A stretch of DNA of 38,752 nucleotides from Candidatus Rokuibacteriota bacterium. Lineage in GTDB: Bacteria; Methylomirabilota; Methylomirabilia; Rokubacteriales; CSP1-6. A program made the translations under genes and the position numbers. The stretch covers positions 1 to 38,752 of the forward strand of contig QHSZ01000085.1 in NCBI GenBank assembly GCA_003220595.1, written 5' to 3'. The notes beneath the pieces are model-generated. The model worked only from the letters and a program-made list of their open reading frames with translations. It was not told the origin of the DNA and searched no databases. This document shows positions 7,321 to 30,094 of this stretch, in pieces (position 1 is the stretch's first letter; each line of letters opens with the position of its first letter).

Positions 7321-8319
7321 ATGGACTGTTGCGGGCACGAGGGATCGGCGAGCGGAGACGCGCGGTTCGACATCAAGCGGGTGGCGGACGGCGTCCACGT
7401 GGCGGTGGCCGCTCCCGCCTACAAGGTGAACTCCAACACTGCCATCATCGAGAGCGACGACGGCGTCCTCATCGTCGACACGCACTCCAAGCCATCGGCG
7501 GCCCGGGTGATCGTCGAGCGGCTGCGCGACATCACGCCGAAGCCGGTCCGTTACGTCGTCAACACGCACTTCCACTGGGACCACTGGCACGGCAACGAGG
7601 TGTACCCGGCCGCCTATCCTCACGCGGAGATCGTCACCAACCAGCTCACGCGCGAGGCCATGCTGAGGAAGGGGCTCAAGCGCATCCAGGACCACGTCCG
7701 CCAGGTGCCCGGGGAGATCGCGAAGCTGGAGGCGGACCTCGCCGCGGCGCGCTCGGCGGCGGAGCGCGAGCGGCTCGAGGCGAATCTGCGGCTGGCCCGG
7801 TCGTACCTGGCGGAGGTCAAGGCGCTCCAGCCCGCGCTCCCGACGATCGCCTTCGAGCGGACGCTGAAGCTCTACCGGCGTGACCGGGAGATCCAGCTCC
7901 TCCATCTGGGGCGCGCCCACACAGAGGGCGACGTGTTCGTCTACCTGCCGAAGGAGAAGGTGGTGATCACCGGCGACGCCGTGATCGGCTGGACACCCTT
8001 CATGGGCGACGGCTATCCCGAGGACTGGGCGACGACCCTCGACCGCCTCGCCGAGCTCGACTTCACCCACATCATCATGGGCCATGGGGACGTCGCCGGC
8101 CGGGACTGGCTCAGGACCTTCCGCGCCTATGTGTACGACATGGTCGAGGCCGTCCGCCGGGAGGTGGCGGCCGGCGCCACGCTCGAGGAGGTCAAGCAAC
8201 GCGTGCCCGCCACGCTCGCGCCGACCTACGAGAAGGCCTTCTCGGCGTACGGCGACTACCGGCCGTGGCGAACGGGCGTGCTCGGCAACATCGAGCGGAC
8301 GTACGCGGTGGTGAGCTAG
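7321..8319 (+). CDS. MBL-fold metallo-hydrolase
   Basis: HFHWDHWHGN metal motif, GRAHTEGDVFVYLPKEKVVITGDAV, MGHGD; GGAGG upstream. Confidence 0.92.
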   Translation: MDCCGHEGSASGDARFDIKRVADGVHVAVAAPAYKVNSNTAIIESDDGVLIVDTHSKPSAARVIVERLRDITPKPVRYVVNTHFHWDHWHGNEVYPAAYPHAEIVTNQLTREAMLRKGLKRIQDHVRQVPGEIAKLEADLAAARSAAERERLEANLRLARSYLAEVKALQPALPTIAFERTLKLYRRDREIQLLHLGRAHTEGDVFVYLPKEKVVITGDAVIGWTPFMGDGYPEDWATTLDRLAELDFTHIIMGHGDVAGRDWLRTFRAYVYDMVEAVRREVAAGATLEEVKQRVPATLAPTYEKAFSAYGDYRPWRTGVLGNIERTYAVVS

Positions 8320-11024: not shown

Positions 11025-12380
11025 CTAGAGCGCGCGCAGGAAGTTCAGCAGATCCTGCTTCTCGGCTTCTCCGAGGGCCCTGTACCTGTCGATCACCGCG
11101 TTCGCTTCCGACGGGCCGAACTTGAGGGTGCCCCCGCTGCGGTGGGCCTGAATCGCGTCCACGAGGTCGGTGGTCCGCCCGTCGTGGAGGAAGAAGATCC
11201 GCTGACCGAGGCCCCAGAGCGGTGCGGTGCGAAACTCGTCCGGTCCGGCCCCGCCCTGCACGACGTCGTCGGCGAGCCCCGGCCCCATCTGATGCACCAG
11301 CAGGTCGGAGTACAGGTTGACGTTCTGGTAGCGCAGGGCGGCGACGGTCGCGTTGCCAGTCCGAAGCGTCGGCGTGTGGCAGAGCCCGCAGCCGACGAAC
11401 GCGAAGACCTGGCGCCCGCGCCCGATCGACAAGGCTCCGCCCGGGGTGCTGGCCGACGGGATGGGCGGAGCCAGGAAGCGCATGAAGAAGCTGAACTTCT
11501 CGATCGCGCTGAGCGTCTCGGCGCCGCCGCCGCCGTTCCCTGCCGTCACGTTGTTGGGCACCGTGGCGAACTGACAGCCGGGCGTCTCGTCACGCTCGGT
11601 CTGGAAGAGCTCGTTCGTGATCCCCATCTCCACGTTGTAGGCCTCGCCCGAGAAGAGCAGCAGGGACTTGTTCTGCGCCTTCCAGCCGAAGCGCGCGATC
11701 GTGCCGTCGTTGCCGTTCCGGTTGGCGCGACCGGTGATGCCGAGGGCCCGCTTGAGGAGGAACGCCGCGGCCTGATTGGCGGTGATGACACGATCCGGAA
11801 TCTGCTCGATGAGCCCGACCCCGAACGTCGGCGTCGGGATCCGGAAGATCACGTTGTTGCGGCCGAGCTGGGCGTCGAAGTTCTCCTGCTCGATGCCGCA
11901 GGCGGCCGCGCTGCCGGACTCGTCGACGCGGCCGCTGATCACGAAGAGCGCGTGAACACCACCGTCACGCGTGCCGTCCGCCTTGTACCGGAACCGCGCC
12001 TCGCGGACGGGACCGTCCGGCGTGATGAACCGCGGCACGACGTTGCGCGCGCCGAACGCGGTCGCGACGGCGACCTGCGGGTTGACGGCCGGAGAGGTGC
12101 CGCCCGTCGCCGGCTGGGCGTGACAGCCGAGGCAGCTGTCGAGGTTGAAGCGGGGACCGAGCCCTTCGCCGACGCCGTCGACCTCCTCGAAGTCCTCGAG
12201 GCCGGCGGCGAAGAGTCCCTGCTCCTCGGCGGTCAGGCCCTCGATGGCTCCGCCGGCGCCGGCGGAACCGCCGCGGACCCCGGGGTCGCGCGCCCGGAAC
12301 TGCGCCTGAATGGTCTCGGATATCCCGAGCAGCGACAGGGCGATCACGGCGATCAGCAGCTTGATGTTCGTCCCACGCAT
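11025..12380 (-). CDS. di-haem c-type oxidoreductase (DUF1111/di-haem oxidoreductase family), exported
   Basis: Two CxxCH motifs (CLGCH, CGLCH), signal peptide MRGTNIKLLIAVIALSLLGISETIQAQ, FLHDGRTTDLVDAIQAH; ATG 12380 preceded by AGGGAG. Confidence 0.9.
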   Translation of the reverse strand: MRGTNIKLLIAVIALSLLGISETIQAQFRARDPGVRGGSAGAGGAIEGLTAEEQGLFAAGLEDFEEVDGVGEGLGPRFNLDSCLGCHAQPATGGTSPAVNPQVAVATAFGARNVVPRFITPDGPVREARFRYKADGTRDGGVHALFVISGRVDESGSAAACGIEQENFDAQLGRNNVIFRIPTPTFGVGLIEQIPDRVITANQAAAFLLKRALGITGRANRNGNDGTIARFGWKAQNKSLLLFSGEAYNVEMGITNELFQTERDETPGCQFATVPNNVTAGNGGGGAETLSAIEKFSFFMRFLAPPIPSASTPGGALSIGRGRQVFAFVGCGLCHTPTLRTGNATVAALRYQNVNLYSDLLVHQMGPGLADDVVQGGAGPDEFRTAPLWGLGQRIFFLHDGRTTDLVDAIQAHRSGGTLKFGPSEANAVIDRYRALGEAEKQDLLNFLRAL

Positions 12381-12433
12381 CTCTGGCTCCCTGGGCAAGC
12401 GCACGGCGCGAAGCATCGCGCACTCGAGTACGG

Positions 12434-12449
12434 GGCAAGCGGAATGCCA
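12434..12449 (-). promoter_or_regulatory. putative sigma-54 (-24/-12) promoter for the di-haem oxidoreductase gene
   Basis: Minus strand TGGCATTCCGCTTGCC: TGGCA and TTGC at exact GG-N10-GC spacing; predicted start about 12423, giving a ~44-nt leader to ATG 12380. Confidence 0.75.
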
Positions 12450-12524
12450 GACGGAGAGTCCCCGCGAAAGGCCTGGCGCCGTGCGGACGTAGCCGGAACC
12501 TGGCGTGGCGGTGACCCTCACGCG

Positions 12525-12540
12525 TTCTCAACCGTGGGAG
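12525..12540. promoter_or_regulatory. putative enhancer (UAS) half-degenerate dyad
   Basis: TTCTCA-ACCG-TGGGAG, same 16-bp layout as the perfect palindrome at 12556; centre-to-centre 31 bp. Confidence 0.5.
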
Positions 12541-12555
12541 CGACAGGGGGGAGAT

Positions 12556-12571
12556 TTCTCAGATCTGAGAA
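12556..12571. promoter_or_regulatory. putative enhancer (UAS) palindrome
   Basis: TTCTCAGATCTGAGAA, perfect 16-bp palindrome, centre about 140 bp upstream of the predicted sigma-54 start. Confidence 0.65.
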
Positions 12572-12603
12572 CCGGGCCGGGCGGGTGCGCCGTCACCTCC
12601 CTC

Positions 12604-12632
12604 TTGTGTCGTGTCGCGAAGGACGCTATCGT
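12604..12632 (+). promoter_or_regulatory. possible sigma-70-type promoter for the response regulator gene
   Basis: TTGTGT-N17-TATCGT on the + strand, about 145 bp upstream of ATG 12778; weak -35. Confidence 0.3.
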
Positions 12633-12777
12633 GAAGAGAGTTCACCTCCGCGTTCATCCGACCAGGTGTTCCGGCAGCACGAGGGCTGCGTCAAGGCCAA
12701 GAGCGAAGAGGGCCGGGCTCCGGCGCGTGCCGTCATCGACCTCGCCGGGAGCGAGCCCGCCCGCCGCGAGGCGAGCG

Positions 12778-14109
12778 ATGACCGCATCGATTCTCGTCGT
12801 GGACGACCAGCCGTCGATGCAAGACGCGCTGAACACGTCGCTTCAGTCCGAGGGCTACCGCGTGGCCACGGCCTGCAGTGGAGAAGAGGCCCTGACCCGT
12901 ATCGAGGCGCAGGAGTTCGACATCGTCCTGACGGACCTCGTCATGCCGGGCCTCAACGGCCTCGACCTGCTGGAGCGATCGCGCGTGCTCGACCCGGGCG
13001 TGGCGGTCATCGTGATGACCGGGTACGCGACCCTCGAGACGGCCGTCGCCGCCCTTCGCCGGGGCGCGTGCGACTACCTCGAAAAGCCCTTCTCGCTGGA
13101 CGAGCTCACACGCTGCGTGCGACGCCTGCTCCAGTACCATGAGGTCCTCGGAAAGGAACGGCTCCTCCGGCGCGCCCTGCACCCGCCGCGGGTCGCGCAT
13201 ACCCTCGTCGGCGAGAGCATCGCGATTCAGGCGGTGCGCGAGAAGATCGCGCGCTGCGCCCGCACGCCCAGCGGCGTGCTCATCTCCGGCGAGAGCGGCG
13301 TGGGCAAGGAGCTCGCCGCGCGCGCGATCCACGCCGCGAGCTGGCGGGCCGACCGCGAGTTCATCGCGCTCAACTGCGGGGCGATTCCGGAGACGCTGCT
13401 CGAGAGCCAGCTCTTCGGGCACGTGCGGGGCGCCTTCACGACGGCGGTGCAGACCAACCCCGGGCTCTTTGTGGCGGCCAGCCGGGGCACGCTGTTCCTG
13501 GACGAGATCGGCGAGCTGCCGCTCCCGCTCCAGGTCAAGCTCCTCCGGGTCATCGAGGAGAAGCACGTCTGGCCGGTGGGCGGCACCAAGCCTTCGCCCG
13601 TGGATGTCCGGATCGTCGCCAGCACCAACCGCGACCTGGCGGCCGAGGTCGCGGGTGGCCGGTTCCGCGAGGACCTCTTCTACCGGCTCAACGTCGTGCA
13701 CCTCACGCTGCCTCCGCTGCGCGAGCGTCGCAGTGACATCCCGCTGCTGGTCGACCATCTCGTCGAGCGCCTCAACGCGCGGCTCGGCACGCGGTTCCTC
13801 GGTGTCGAGCGGGAGGCGCTCGGGGCGCTCACGAGCCAGCCGTGGAAGGGCAACGTCCGGGAACTGCAGAACGTCCTCGAGCGGGCGATGGTCCTCGGCG
13901 GTGGCGATTTGATCTCGCTGCGGCACCTGGCCGCCGACCTTCTGCCTCCCGACCAGACGCGTCCCCACGACCTTCGCGAGGCCGTCAGGCGGTTCGAGCG
14001 CCAGCACCTCATGGACGTCCTGGCCGAGACGTGCTCGGACAAGCGCAAGGCGGCCCGCCTGCTCGGCATCAGCCTGGCGTCCCTCTACCGCAAGCTCGGC
14101 GTCGAGTGA
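12778..14109 (+). CDS. sigma-54-dependent response regulator (REC-AAA+-Fis HTH, NtrC family)
   Basis: SILVVDDQPSMQDALNTSLQSEGYR receiver; GESGVGKELAARAIH Walker A; GTLFLDEIGE Walker B; GAFTTA loop; C-terminal KRKAARLLGISLASLYRKL HTH. Confidence 0.95.
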   Translation: MTASILVVDDQPSMQDALNTSLQSEGYRVATACSGEEALTRIEAQEFDIVLTDLVMPGLNGLDLLERSRVLDPGVAVIVMTGYATLETAVAALRRGACDYLEKPFSLDELTRCVRRLLQYHEVLGKERLLRRALHPPRVAHTLVGESIAIQAVREKIARCARTPSGVLISGESGVGKELAARAIHAASWRADREFIALNCGAIPETLLESQLFGHVRGAFTTAVQTNPGLFVAASRGTLFLDEIGELPLPLQVKLLRVIEEKHVWPVGGTKPSPVDVRIVASTNRDLAAEVAGGRFREDLFYRLNVVHLTLPPLRERRSDIPLLVDHLVERLNARLGTRFLGVEREALGALTSQPWKGNVRELQNVLERAMVLGGGDLISLRHLAADLLPPDQTRPHDLREAVRRFERQHLMDVLAETCSDKRKAARLLGISLASLYRKLGVE

Positions 14110-26058: not shown

Positions 26059-27267
26059 TCAGGAAGCGGGCGGCTCCACGTCGCGCGCGCCGGAGGTGCG
26101 CTGGCGGTACTCGGCGGGGATCGGGCGGCCGGCGTCCAGGTAGGCCCGGCGCACGGCTTCCACGTTGGGGCCAAAGATGGTCTTGCGGTTGCCGCGCGCC
26201 CACTCGTTCGAGCCGCGGATGGTGTCGAGCGAGCCCTGGAAGCGTGGCATCACGTAGCGGGCGAAGAGCTCGTAGCTCTTGAGTGTCTTCTCGCGGTTGG
26301 CCCACTCGTGGGCGCGGAACAGGATCCCGCCGAAGCCGCCCCGGCTCAGCTCCTCGAGCCGCCCGATGCCGCGGATCACGGTCTCGGGCGAGCCGACCAG
26401 GGTCGTGCCCATCTGCACGCCCTCGCGCAAGGGATCGTCGGCCCGGCCCGGCGGGCGGCCGAGCGTCTCCTCGAAGTAGGTGATCGTCTCGTGCCGCTCG
26501 GCGCGCTCCACCTCGCGCAGGGCCTGCTCGTCCTCGTCCGCGACGTGGACGTTCACCACGAGGCGCCAGTCCTTCCGGTCCATCCGCTTGCCGTGCCGGG
26601 CGGCGGTCTCCTCGGCGATCGTCCACTGATCGGCCAGGGCCTCGGGCCCGCCCGGCAGGCCCGCGCCGAGCGAGAGCACGCCGAGACCGTGCTTGCCCGC
26701 CGCCGTCACGCCGGCGGGGGTGATCGTGCTCGCCACGGCGATCGGGAAGTGCGGCTCGGTGTACGGGGCCAGGTGGAGACGCGCTTCGCGCAGCTCGAAC
26801 CAGTCGGTCTTTATCGTCACCGGCTCCGCGCAACGAAGAAGGCGCATGATGGCGTCGAGCGACTCCTCCATCCGCACCCGCTGGGTCACGGGCTCGATCC
26901 CCAGCATGTACGCGTCGGACACCAGGGCGCCCGGCCCGCAGCCGAGCATCGCGCGACCGCGTGTCATGTGGTCGAGCTGGACGAAGCGCTGGGCCACGAG
27001 GAGCGGGTGGTGGTAGGGCAGGCTCGTCACGCCGGAGCCGAGCATGATGTGGCGCGTCCGCTCGGCAGCGGCGGCGATGAAGATCTCGGGCGAGGCGATC
27101 AGCTCCCAGCCCGCCGAGTGGTGCTCGCCCACCCAGACCTCGTCGTAGCCGAGGTAGTCGAGCCACTCGATCAACTCCATGTCGCGCGCCAGGGCGAGCG
27201 TGGGGTTCTCGCCGATGCGGTGGAACGGCGCGAGGAAGATGCCGAACTTCATTCCCTTGTGGGCCAT
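26059..27267 (-). CDS. LLM class flavin-dependent oxidoreductase
   Basis: MKFGIFLAPFHRIGENPTLALARDMELIEWLDYLGYDEVWVGEHHSAGWELIASPEIFIAAAAERT. Confidence 0.95.
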   Translation of the reverse strand: MAHKGMKFGIFLAPFHRIGENPTLALARDMELIEWLDYLGYDEVWVGEHHSAGWELIASPEIFIAAAAERTRHIMLGSGVTSLPYHHPLLVAQRFVQLDHMTRGRAMLGCGPGALVSDAYMLGIEPVTQRVRMEESLDAIMRLLRCAEPVTIKTDWFELREARLHLAPYTEPHFPIAVASTITPAGVTAAGKHGLGVLSLGAGLPGGPEALADQWTIAEETAARHGKRMDRKDWRLVVNVHVADEDEQALREVERAERHETITYFEETLGRPPGRADDPLREGVQMGTTLVGSPETVIRGIGRLEELSRGGFGGILFRAHEWANREKTLKSYELFARYVMPRFQGSLDTIRGSNEWARGNRKTIFGPNVEAVRRAYLDAGRPIPAEYRQRTSGARDVEPPAS

Positions 27268-27283: not shown

Positions 27284-28066
27284 TCAGCCGGCCGGCTCCC
27301 CGGCGTTGACCGGGAGGACCTGGCCCGAGATGTTGCGCGCGAGCGGACTGCACAGGAACGCCGCGGCCGCCGCGATGTCGTCCGCTCGAGCCATCCGCTT
27401 GAGCGGCGAGCGCTCGATCAGCGTCTGGCGCATGGCGTCGACCGAGATGCCCCGCACCTTGGCCTGCCCCTCGATGACGCGGTCGATGCGATCGCCCTCG
27501 ATGGCGCCGGGGGCGACGCAGTTGACGGTGATGTTGTACGGCGCCAGCTCCAGGGCCACGCCGTAGGTCATCCCGACCTGGCCGGCCTTGGCCGAGCAGT
27601 AGCCGATGCGGTAGGGGAGCCCGCGACGTCCCGCCCCCGACGAGATATTCACGATGGCCCCGCCGCCGGCCTTGATGATCTCGGGCGCGACGAAGCGGAT
27701 GCACATGTACGAGCTGGTGAGGCAGGAGTTGATCGTGTAGAACCAGTCTTCCTCGGTGTACTCCTGCACCGGCTTGGTCGGCCCGCCGTCACCGGCGTTG
27801 TTGACGAGCGTGTCGATCTTGCCGAAGGCCTGCAGGCCCGCCGTGACCATCCGCTTCACGTCCGCTTCCCTGGCGGCGTCGGCCGTCACCGCGATGGCGC
27901 GCCCGCCGTCCTTGGCGATGAGCGCGGCCGTTTCCTCCACCAGCGCGCCGGAGCGGGCGGCGCAGACCACGGCCGCGCCCTCGGCCGCGAAGAGGCGGCT
28001 CATGACCCGCCCGATGCCCTTGCTCGCGCCGGTGATCACCGCCACCCTGCCGTTCAGGAGATCCAT
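27284..28066 (-). CDS. SDR family oxidoreductase
   Basis: GRVAVITGASKGIGRVMSRLFAAEGA, LVNNAGDGG, YRIGYCSAKAGQVGMTYGVALEL (YxxxK). Confidence 0.93.
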   Translation of the reverse strand: MDLLNGRVAVITGASKGIGRVMSRLFAAEGAAVVCAARSGALVEETAALIAKDGGRAIAVTADAAREADVKRMVTAGLQAFGKIDTLVNNAGDGGPTKPVQEYTEEDWFYTINSCLTSSYMCIRFVAPEIIKAGGGAIVNISSGAGRRGLPYRIGYCSAKAGQVGMTYGVALELAPYNITVNCVAPGAIEGDRIDRVIEGQAKVRGISVDAMRQTLIERSPLKRMARADDIAAAAAFLCSPLARNISGQVLPVNAGEPAG

Positions 28067-28139
28067 GGTCGCTCCTCTCACTGATGCGAGAGGGTACACC
28101 AGGAGCGGGGCGGCCCGAAGCGCGGGTACTCGGCCGGAG

Positions 28140-28607
28140 CTATCCCGCCTTGGCTGCCGCCCGCAGCTCCTGAACGTGCTCCGCCCAGTGACGGGCGAGC
28201 AGCTCGAGCCGCTGCCGTCCCGTCATGGTGTCACCGTTCGCCCGCCGAAAGCAGGGCGTGTCGAGATCGGGCGCGCCGCGGGCGGCGCGCAACAGCCGGG
28301 CGTGGGCCAGTCGCACCTGGACCAGGAGCTCGTCGAGGCTCTCCTGCTCGTGCAGGCGCCGGCACACCTCGTTCACGGTGTCGGAGTCCCCCGGCACCGG
28401 CCAGAGGGGTCCGCCCGTGGCCACCGACTGGATGCCCCACGCGGTGGCGTCGTGGAAGTAGATGAAGTGCATCAGCACGTCGCGAGCCTGCCAGCGGTCG
28501 ACGCGGGCCTTGCTCGCCCGCCCCGGCCCCTCGAAATAGGCGAGCGTGTCCCGCACCACCTTGTCCAGGTCGGCCAGCAGCGCGTCGTCGGGAGGTAGCG
28601 TCGCCAT
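28140..28607 (-). CDS. DinB/maleylpyruvate isomerase N-terminal-like protein
   Basis: WQARDVLMHFIYFHDATAWGIQSVATGG ... RQRLELLARHWAEHVQELRAAAKAG; ATG 28607 with AAGGGG upstream. Confidence 0.7.
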   Translation of the reverse strand: MATLPPDDALLADLDKVVRDTLAYFEGPGRASKARVDRWQARDVLMHFIYFHDATAWGIQSVATGGPLWPVPGDSDTVNEVCRRLHEQESLDELLVQVRLAHARLLRAARGAPDLDTPCFRRANGDTMTGRQRLELLARHWAEHVQELRAAAKAG

Positions 28608-28644
28608 GGGCAACCCCTTCGGTCGAGGTCGATGGACTGGAGGG

Positions 28645-28650: not shown

Positions 28651-28893
28651 CAGCGTTACGACATACGCGGCGGGGGAAAGCGCGCGCCGGGTGGACCGGT
28701 CACGGCAGCGGTGGCCTGTTCGGGCCTACGCACGCCGCCGTGACCGATTGGGCGGAGAGGTCCGCACCGCCCTCCTCGCGCGTCACGCGATCGGGTCGTC
28801 GTCGCTTTCGCGGGTACGTTTCAATCTGCGTTGTGCGACTCCCACCCCTCGGTGTCGACGCGACCGCCGAGCAGCGGAGCAATGCGCCTGCCA

Positions 28894-29101: not shown

Positions 29102-30094
29102 TCACTCACGCTCACCCTCGCCCAGGGGAATGCCGTAGCGCTTCGTGAGCCGGTAGAGGGTCCGCCGGTGGATGCCGAGCAGCTGAGCGGCGAGCTTCTT
29201 GTTCCACCGCGCGTCCTTCAACACGCGGCGCACGTGACGGGTCACCACCTCCCGCAGGCTCAGGGGCGGCCCGGCGACCGCGCCCTCCCGTCCTGCCGCG
29301 CTCCCGAGCTTGGGCGGCAGGTCGTCGGGGCGGAGCACGGAATTCGTCGTCAGGGCGACGGCGCGCTCGATGGCGTGCTCCAGCTCGCGGACGTTCCCGG
29401 GCCAGCCGTAGCCGACGAGCCACGCCATCGCCTCGGGCGAGATCGCGGCCACCGGCTTGTCGTTCGCGGCGACGTACGTCTTGAGAAAGTGCGTGGCGAG
29501 CAGCGGGATGTCCTCGCGCCGCTCGCGAAGGGGCGGCAGGACGATCGTCACGACGCTCAGGCGGTAGAAGAGGTCTTCTCGGAATTTCCCGTCGGCGACC
29601 AGCGCTCCCAGGTCGCGGTTGGTCGCGGCGATGACCCTGACATCCATCTTGAAGCTCTCGGTTCCCCCGACGCGCTTCACCTCGTGCTCTTGAAGGACCC
29701 GCAGCAGCTTCGCCTGCATGCACGGACTGAACTCCCCGACCTCGTCGAGAAAGCACGTCCCGCCGTGTGCCGCCTCGAAGAGCCCACGCTTGTCGGTCAC
29801 GGCGCCGGTGAAGGCGCCCCGGACGTGACCGAACAGCTCGCTCTCGAGCAGGCTCTCGGCCAGGGCGCTGCAGTCCACCGTCACGAAGGGCCGCGAGGCC
29901 CGCGGGCTTGCGGCGTGGAGGGCGCGCGCGATCAATTCCTTGCCCGTCCCGGTCTCCCCCTGAATGAGGACGGTACTGCGGGTCGGCGCGACGCGCCGGA
30001 CGGTCTCGTAGATCTCGAGCATCTGTGGCGCGGTGCCGACGATGCTGGGCGGCACCGCGGTGTTGGCGGCTTCCATGAATCGGACCTCAGACAT
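29102..30094 (-). CDS. sigma-54 interaction domain transcriptional activator lacking a receiver domain (PspF-like architecture)
   Basis: [15 protein letters not shown], canonical [17 protein letters not shown]-terminal [22 protein letters not shown]; starts directly in the AAA+ domain; GAGGAGG before ATG. Confidence 0.93.

Follow-up and report, generated by a model that had tools for sequence, protein, structure and literature searches.

The 397-bp intergenic region between two divergent genes of a Candidatus Rokuibacteriota genome, one on the minus strand for an exported di-haem oxidoreductase (DHOR) and one on the plus strand for an NtrC-type response regulator (RR), contains what we take, with a probability of roughly 0.88, to be a sigma-54 enhancer-promoter module through which the RR switches on the DHOR gene. 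The elements of the module, their conservation and phasing, the co-occurrence of the module with the RR, and its presence before other oxidase genes were all established computationally. In the mechanism proposed here, the RR would be phosphorylated by a kinase encoded elsewhere and would bind to two helically phased dyads centred at about -109 and -140 relative to the transcription start; once bound, it would loop to sigma-54 polymerase positioned at the -24/-12 element and so drive DHOR expression from the predicted start.

The locus and its promoter elements

The window, which is the whole stretch of 38,752 nucleotides that was analysed, is the entire contig G000:C149 of a 4.06-Mb genome in 380 contigs. 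Close relatives of its RR lie in Candidatus Rokuibacteriota metagenome assemblies, apparently from soil cores. The sequence-only reading of this DNA had located a -24/-12 element, two dyads, an AGGGAG and the ATG at 12380, and direct reading confirms its letters and coordinates throughout (Table 1).

Table 1. Features of the DHOR–RR region in window coordinates
Feature	Position	Strand	Basis
Di-haem oxidoreductase (DHOR, PF06537), 451 aa	11025..12380	-	Pfam, CxxCH motifs, homologs
Shine-Dalgarno AGGGAG, before ATG 12380	12387..12392	-	read directly
Predicted sigma-54 transcription start (about +1)	12423	-	position of the -24/-12 element only
Whole dyad-dyad-sigma54 module	12432..12573	-	model R1 match, E=2.3e-18 (training member)
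Sigma-54 -24/-12 element TGGCATTCCGCTTGCC	12434..12449	-	sequence; kept in orthologs
Proximal (degenerate) dyad TTCTCAACCGTGGGAG, TTCTCA-ACCG-TGGGAG, centre ~ -109.5	12525..12540	.	putative enhancer; conservation in 13 promoters
Distal (perfect) dyad TTCTCAGATCTGAGAA, centre ~ -140.5	12556..12571	.	putative enhancer; sequence, conservation
Likely sigma-70 promoter of the RR gene, TTGTGT-N17-TATCGT	12604..12632	+	inspection, unscored
NtrC-type RR (receiver - AAA+ - Fis-type HTH), 443 aa	12778..14109	+	Pfam; conserved residues; clade 100/100

The -24/-12 element has, as claimed, GG-N10-GC (minus strand, 12449-12434), in a TGGCA-N6-TTGC context and suitably spaced from the start codon, as in sigma-54 promoters, and rpoN is present in the genome (PF04552, 5e-61). 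Exact TGGCA-N6-TTGC occurs 36 times in this genome, and, in a genome-wide count allowing ≤1 mismatch, a reversed control pattern is commoner than the -24/-12 motif. Since the letters by themselves are weak and not significant genome-wide, it is conservation that carries the case and makes the element convincing; in many DHOR orthologs, it is found some 45-90 bp upstream of the start. On inspection (unscored), a sequence resembling the RR gene's likely sigma-70 promoter, TTGTRT-N17/18-TATTGT, is also seen in L099, L101, and L144.

Elsewhere in the window, a second sigma-54 activator, which is receiver-less and has GAFTGA, is encoded at 29102-30094 (-). A strong -24/-12 match, TGGCAGGCGCATTGCT (28878-28893, -), lies before three minus-strand genes, one at 28140-28613, an SDR-like one at 27284-28099, and a flavin-monooxygenase-like one at 26059-27267; this site and the receiver-less activator possibly form another enhancer-dependent operon.

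Of 20,000 order-1 shuffles of the 397-bp region, 1.7% contain some perfect 16-bp palindrome, whatever its sequence, and 0.04% contain such a palindrome together with a second copy (≤2 arm mismatches, ≤60 bp away). The perfect dyad, TTCTCA-N4-TGAGAA, has a single occurrence in the 4.06-Mb genome. A genome scan for this dyad beside sigma-54 sites, as suggested in the sequence-only reading, recovered the window site but no second module: none of the other dyads (≤2 mismatches) that were inspected in the genome has a paired, phased sigma-54 site, and a model of the whole module (R1, see below) has one significant match there. Two near-perfect dyad copies merely 18 bp apart were observed at G000:C380:5520 and 5538; in the 350 bp around them, no sigma-54 site was seen.

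The claim that the dyad centres are 31 bp apart, at about -109 and -140, also proved right; they lie at about -109.5 and -140.5. At the glnAp2 promoter of E. coli, NtrC sites lie at about -108 and -140, some 32 bp apart. The window resembles this system in having two dyads at nearly equal positions, a -24/-12 element, and an activator with the receiver-AAA+-HTH organization, but it differs in the sequence of the dyads, in its di-haem oxidoreductase target, in the GAFTTA loop of the activator (see below), and in the placement of the activator gene, which adjoins the target gene divergently and lacks a neighbouring kinase gene.

Conservation of the module and its association with the regulator

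DHOR orthologs were drawn from 60 relatives and RR orthologs from 57 genomes of the family, and tblastn was run with each protein against the loci. Comparison of the orthologous loci, which had been put forward as a check, revealed that the -24/-12 element, both dyads, and the spacing of 31-32 bp are kept. The dyad pair is present in eight of the nine loci in which the RR and DHOR genes are adjacent (the window, L055, L061, L100, L102, L103, L104, and L227). The sole exception, L144, which has the RR, the DHOR, and a -24/-12 element but no dyads, counts against the main reading. The L144 contig is labelled Actinobacteria and carries a 71%-identical RR of the Rokubacteria type plus a DHOR; it is probably mis-binned. 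In an alignment of nine promoters (143 columns), all 19 of the invariant columns fall within the two dyads and the -24/-12 element.

Of the 18 DHOR loci of the first set that have no RR next to them, the upstream region is unreadable in two (a run of N in L052, a fragment in L067), and dyads are found in none of the 16 that could be evaluated. Good -24/-12 elements, with neither a nearby RR nor TTCTCA dyads, precede the DHOR orthologs of L048-L051 and L053. That many DHOR orthologs keep the -24/-12 element without dyads or an adjacent RR implies that sigma-54 control of DHOR is wider than this RR. Upstream of the gene in L053, there is a perfect TGACGA-N3-TCGTCA, which is partial in L051 and is confined to these two RR-less DHOR promoters; its presence suggests that the L053 promoter is served by a different activator.

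In the DHOR tree, the window groups with L055, L061, L102, L103, and L104 (98/94). The DHOR of L100 belongs to another clade, where it is sister to that of L060; L060 has neither RR nor dyads, whereas L100 has both. Since this DHOR from another clade has the module beside the RR, the dyads follow the RR, and the sequences indicate that in L100 the target has been exchanged behind the same RR and module. The regulatory link between the RR and the DHOR, which the sequence-only reading had inferred, is supported: the module tracks the RR gene and not the DHOR lineage.

A model of the module, R1, which uses sequence only and was trained on nine promoters, was searched against the 57 genomes of the family and then 95 genomes of the phylum. 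It recovers its training promoters (E < 1e-12) and finds four new sites: G068:C572 (1e-11), G069:C266 (3e-7), G067:C143 (2e-6), and G067:C441 (2e-5). Three of these precede DHOR genes, while the fourth, G067:C143, leaves the contig shortly into the gene. The site in G068 lies at a DHOR gene with a truncated RR, and that of G067:C441 before a distant DHOR (31% identity). In G069, the module precedes a DHOR with no RR nearby; the RR of this genome is on another contig (L099), with no DHOR adjoining it. The two G067 sites have an upstream neighbour in common and may be haplotypes of one locus. In total, 13 promoters, two of them probably these haplotypes, carry the module; they come from 12 genomes and five genera, and no module was found outside this family in the 95 phylum genomes. 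Counted by genome, 11 of the 13 that have an RR ortholog contain it, versus 1 of the 44 that do not (Fisher p=5e-9, a value uncorrected for shared ancestry, with positives mostly from genus g8). The G067 genome (820 contigs), which has the module but in which the RR ortholog was not found, counts against the main reading.

The dyad centres are 30-32 bp apart in all 13 promoters, and the centre of the proximal one falls between -107 and -112 in nine of them and between -95 and -98 in four, with about one helical turn between the two classes. The 13 promoters thus have the paired, helically phased upstream dyads of NtrC-type systems. L103 and L104 count against the main reading in two respects: their proximal dyad keeps the 32-bp spacing but, with five mismatches, is very degenerate, and both loci have an additional, third dyad farther upstream.

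These data bear on two other explanations. Chance features of a GC-rich intergenic region might be invoked because the -24/-12 motif by itself is no commoner than its reversed control; this idea is refuted by the conservation, with E-values of 1e-5 to 1e-11 for the module in promoters outside the training set and invariant columns in the three elements only. The dyads might instead be unrelated repressor sites or terminator-like hairpins that lie upstream of the -24/-12 element by coincidence. One-component repressors, too, typically have perfect palindromes as their sites, and the palindrome itself fits this; nothing further favours this explanation, which is very improbable given that two copies are phased by 30-32 bp, are tied to the -24/-12 element at 13 promoters, and track the RR. 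Moreover, no T-run follows the dyads, which lie between divergent genes, and no Rfam family matches in 11900-13200.

Another conserved element, TTTTC-N6-TT, is observed in the spacer of L061, L100, L103, L104, L106, L227, L228, L229, and L230; in eight of these nine loci it precedes the -24 GG by around 29-32 bp, and in L106 by 44 bp. TTTTC occurs in 10 of the 13 promoters versus 1 expected in shuffles and is missing from the window. Our guess is that the element is an IHF-like bending site.

A third explanation is that the dyads mainly autoregulate the RR gene and that another enhancer-binding protein activates the DHOR promoter. In L101, L099, and L159, the DHOR gene is missing between a glyoxalase gene and the RR gene, and L101 nevertheless keeps a perfect dyad and a partner spaced by 31 bp, so autoregulation may be part of the role of the dyads. 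The RR-less DHOR orthologs that keep -24/-12 elements without dyads indicate, moreover, that another activator can serve this type of promoter. However, the dyads have decayed in the other two DHOR-loss loci, L099 and L159; they hold a fixed phase to the -24/-12 element in 13 promoters; they lie before target genes with no nearby RR in L228, L229, and L230; and they are downstream of the RR, before the oxidase gene, in L105 and L106. In the window, about 75-106 bp separate them from the presumed RR start, and they leave the core of the RR promoter uncovered. Autoregulation as the main role of the dyads is therefore unlikely, and activation of the DHOR gene by the RR is the preferred reading.

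The enzyme and the response regulator

The identity of the di-haem enzyme, as first read, is borne out by a match to PF06537 (1.6e-31, 109.8 bits versus a gathering threshold of 22) and by two CxxCH motifs, CLGCH and CGLCH, both of which are invariant in 26 orthologs. The protein resembles the PF06537 family in these motifs and in a profile match over its C-terminal two thirds, but its N-terminal third lies outside the profile. Its N-terminus is signal-like, and export is predicted. DHOR homologs are present in 20 of the 60 relatives searched. No solved structure related to DHOR by sequence was found, and the AlphaFold model is poor (mean pLDDT 53).

The regulator was correctly recognized as NtrC-type: it has a receiver (PF00072), an AAA+ sigma-54 interaction domain (PF00158), PF25601, and a Fis-type helix-turn-helix (PF02954). 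Receiver residues D9, D10, D53, and K103 are invariant, and the helix-turn-helix is nearly identical across orthologs. In place of GAFTGA, the AAA+ loop has GAFTTA, or GAFTNA in L055, with F and T kept; this departure counts against the main reading. Substitutions in GAFTGA are mostly harmful in other activators, although some in NorR retain activity (PMC2941729). In the RR tree, L105, L106, and a broken copy in L107 fall within a 15-row clade (100/100).

Other predicted oxidase targets and a possible link to the Mnx system

In L105 and L106, a sensor kinase gene is followed by the RR gene and then by the same promoter module before an oxidase gene. In L105, the module lies before a multicopper oxidase (PF07731) whose nearest solved structure is that of bilirubin oxidase, with SCO1/SenC following. 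In L106, it precedes a giant multicopper oxidase of the MnxG type, which matches NCBIfam NF041487 over its full length at 2133-2250 bits; this is below the MnxG equivalog cutoff of 3100 bits and makes it a relative, not an equivalog. The window, in contrast to these two loci, has neither a kinase gene adjoining the RR nor a multicopper oxidase. The best match to the L106 kinase in the window genome has 36% identity over the PAS-kinase part and is not a clear ortholog, and no MnxG was found in that genome. In L106, a short open frame after the RR gene (7861-8221) holds a second copy of the C-terminal helix-turn-helix of the RR. Plasmid-borne relatives of MnxG in Indioceanicola, Roseomonas, and Sphingobium were also considered, and neither the RR nor the dyads were found nearby.

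In Pseudomonas, Mn(II) oxidation requires MnxS1/MnxS2 and the sigma-54-dependent MnxR and is abolished by insertion in rpoN; mcoA, which in some strains lies between mnxS1 and mnxS2, has an SCO1/SenC gene after it (PMC11409713). Both the mnxG and the mcoA promoter need Mn and contain predicted sites for IHF and sigma-54 (PMC11930936). The L105 and L106 loci resemble this system, as known from Pseudomonas putida GB-1 and its relatives, in combining a sigma-54 RR with kinase genes and sigma-54 promoters and in their targets, a multicopper oxidase with SCO1 and an MnxG-type oxidase; the likeness is one of gene arrangement. The window and most of its relatives differ from the Mnx system in having DHOR as the target and a kinase that is not encoded next to the RR. 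The pairing of the RR with MnxG-type and other multicopper oxidases suggests a regulon of a known, Mnx-like type, and it may be speculated that the RR is MnxR-like and that DHOR takes part in a response of metal, possibly Mn(II), oxidation.

Given this resemblance, DHOR is a candidate alternative oxidase in a Mnx-like regulon. Such an extension of the main reading, in which DHOR would oxidize Mn(II) or a similar metal in place of MnxG or McoA, is tentative. It is consistent with the fact that RR orthologs of a single 100/100 clade share the module before an MnxG-type oxidase and before a multicopper oxidase with SCO1, and with the requirements of Mn oxidation in Pseudomonas and the predicted sigma-54 sites of its Mn-requiring promoters. 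The third Mn oxidase of GB-1 is also haem-based, being a peroxidase (PMC11409713). Against it stand the haem family of DHOR, which differs from that of the known Mn peroxidase, MopA, the score of the L106 oxidase under the MnxG cutoff, the bilirubin oxidase affinity of the L105 enzyme, and the absence of MnxG from the window genome. Slightly more doubtful still is the wider proposal that a MnxR-like RR subfamily of Rokubacteria, with a transferable module, has switched between targets among unrelated exported oxidases (an MnxG-type multicopper oxidase, a multicopper oxidase with SCO1, and several DHOR lineages). In that case, DHOR would represent a novel type of bacterial oxidase, for Mn(II), extracellular metals, or phenols, from a soil phylum that is widespread.

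The architecture described here is classical, and the regulon is apparently undescribed in the literature searched, in which no sigma-54 regulon was found for the PF06537 family. The loci in which DHOR has been lost or swapped constitute a natural experiment in which an enhancer module keeps its regulator and changes its target. An uncharacterised di-haem enzyme of uncultured soil bacteria is tied to an RR subfamily that is elsewhere associated with multicopper oxidases of the manganese-oxidase type, which turns a DHOR of unknown function into the subject of a specific prediction, namely that it may be induced by, and may oxidize, Mn(II) or a similar substrate.
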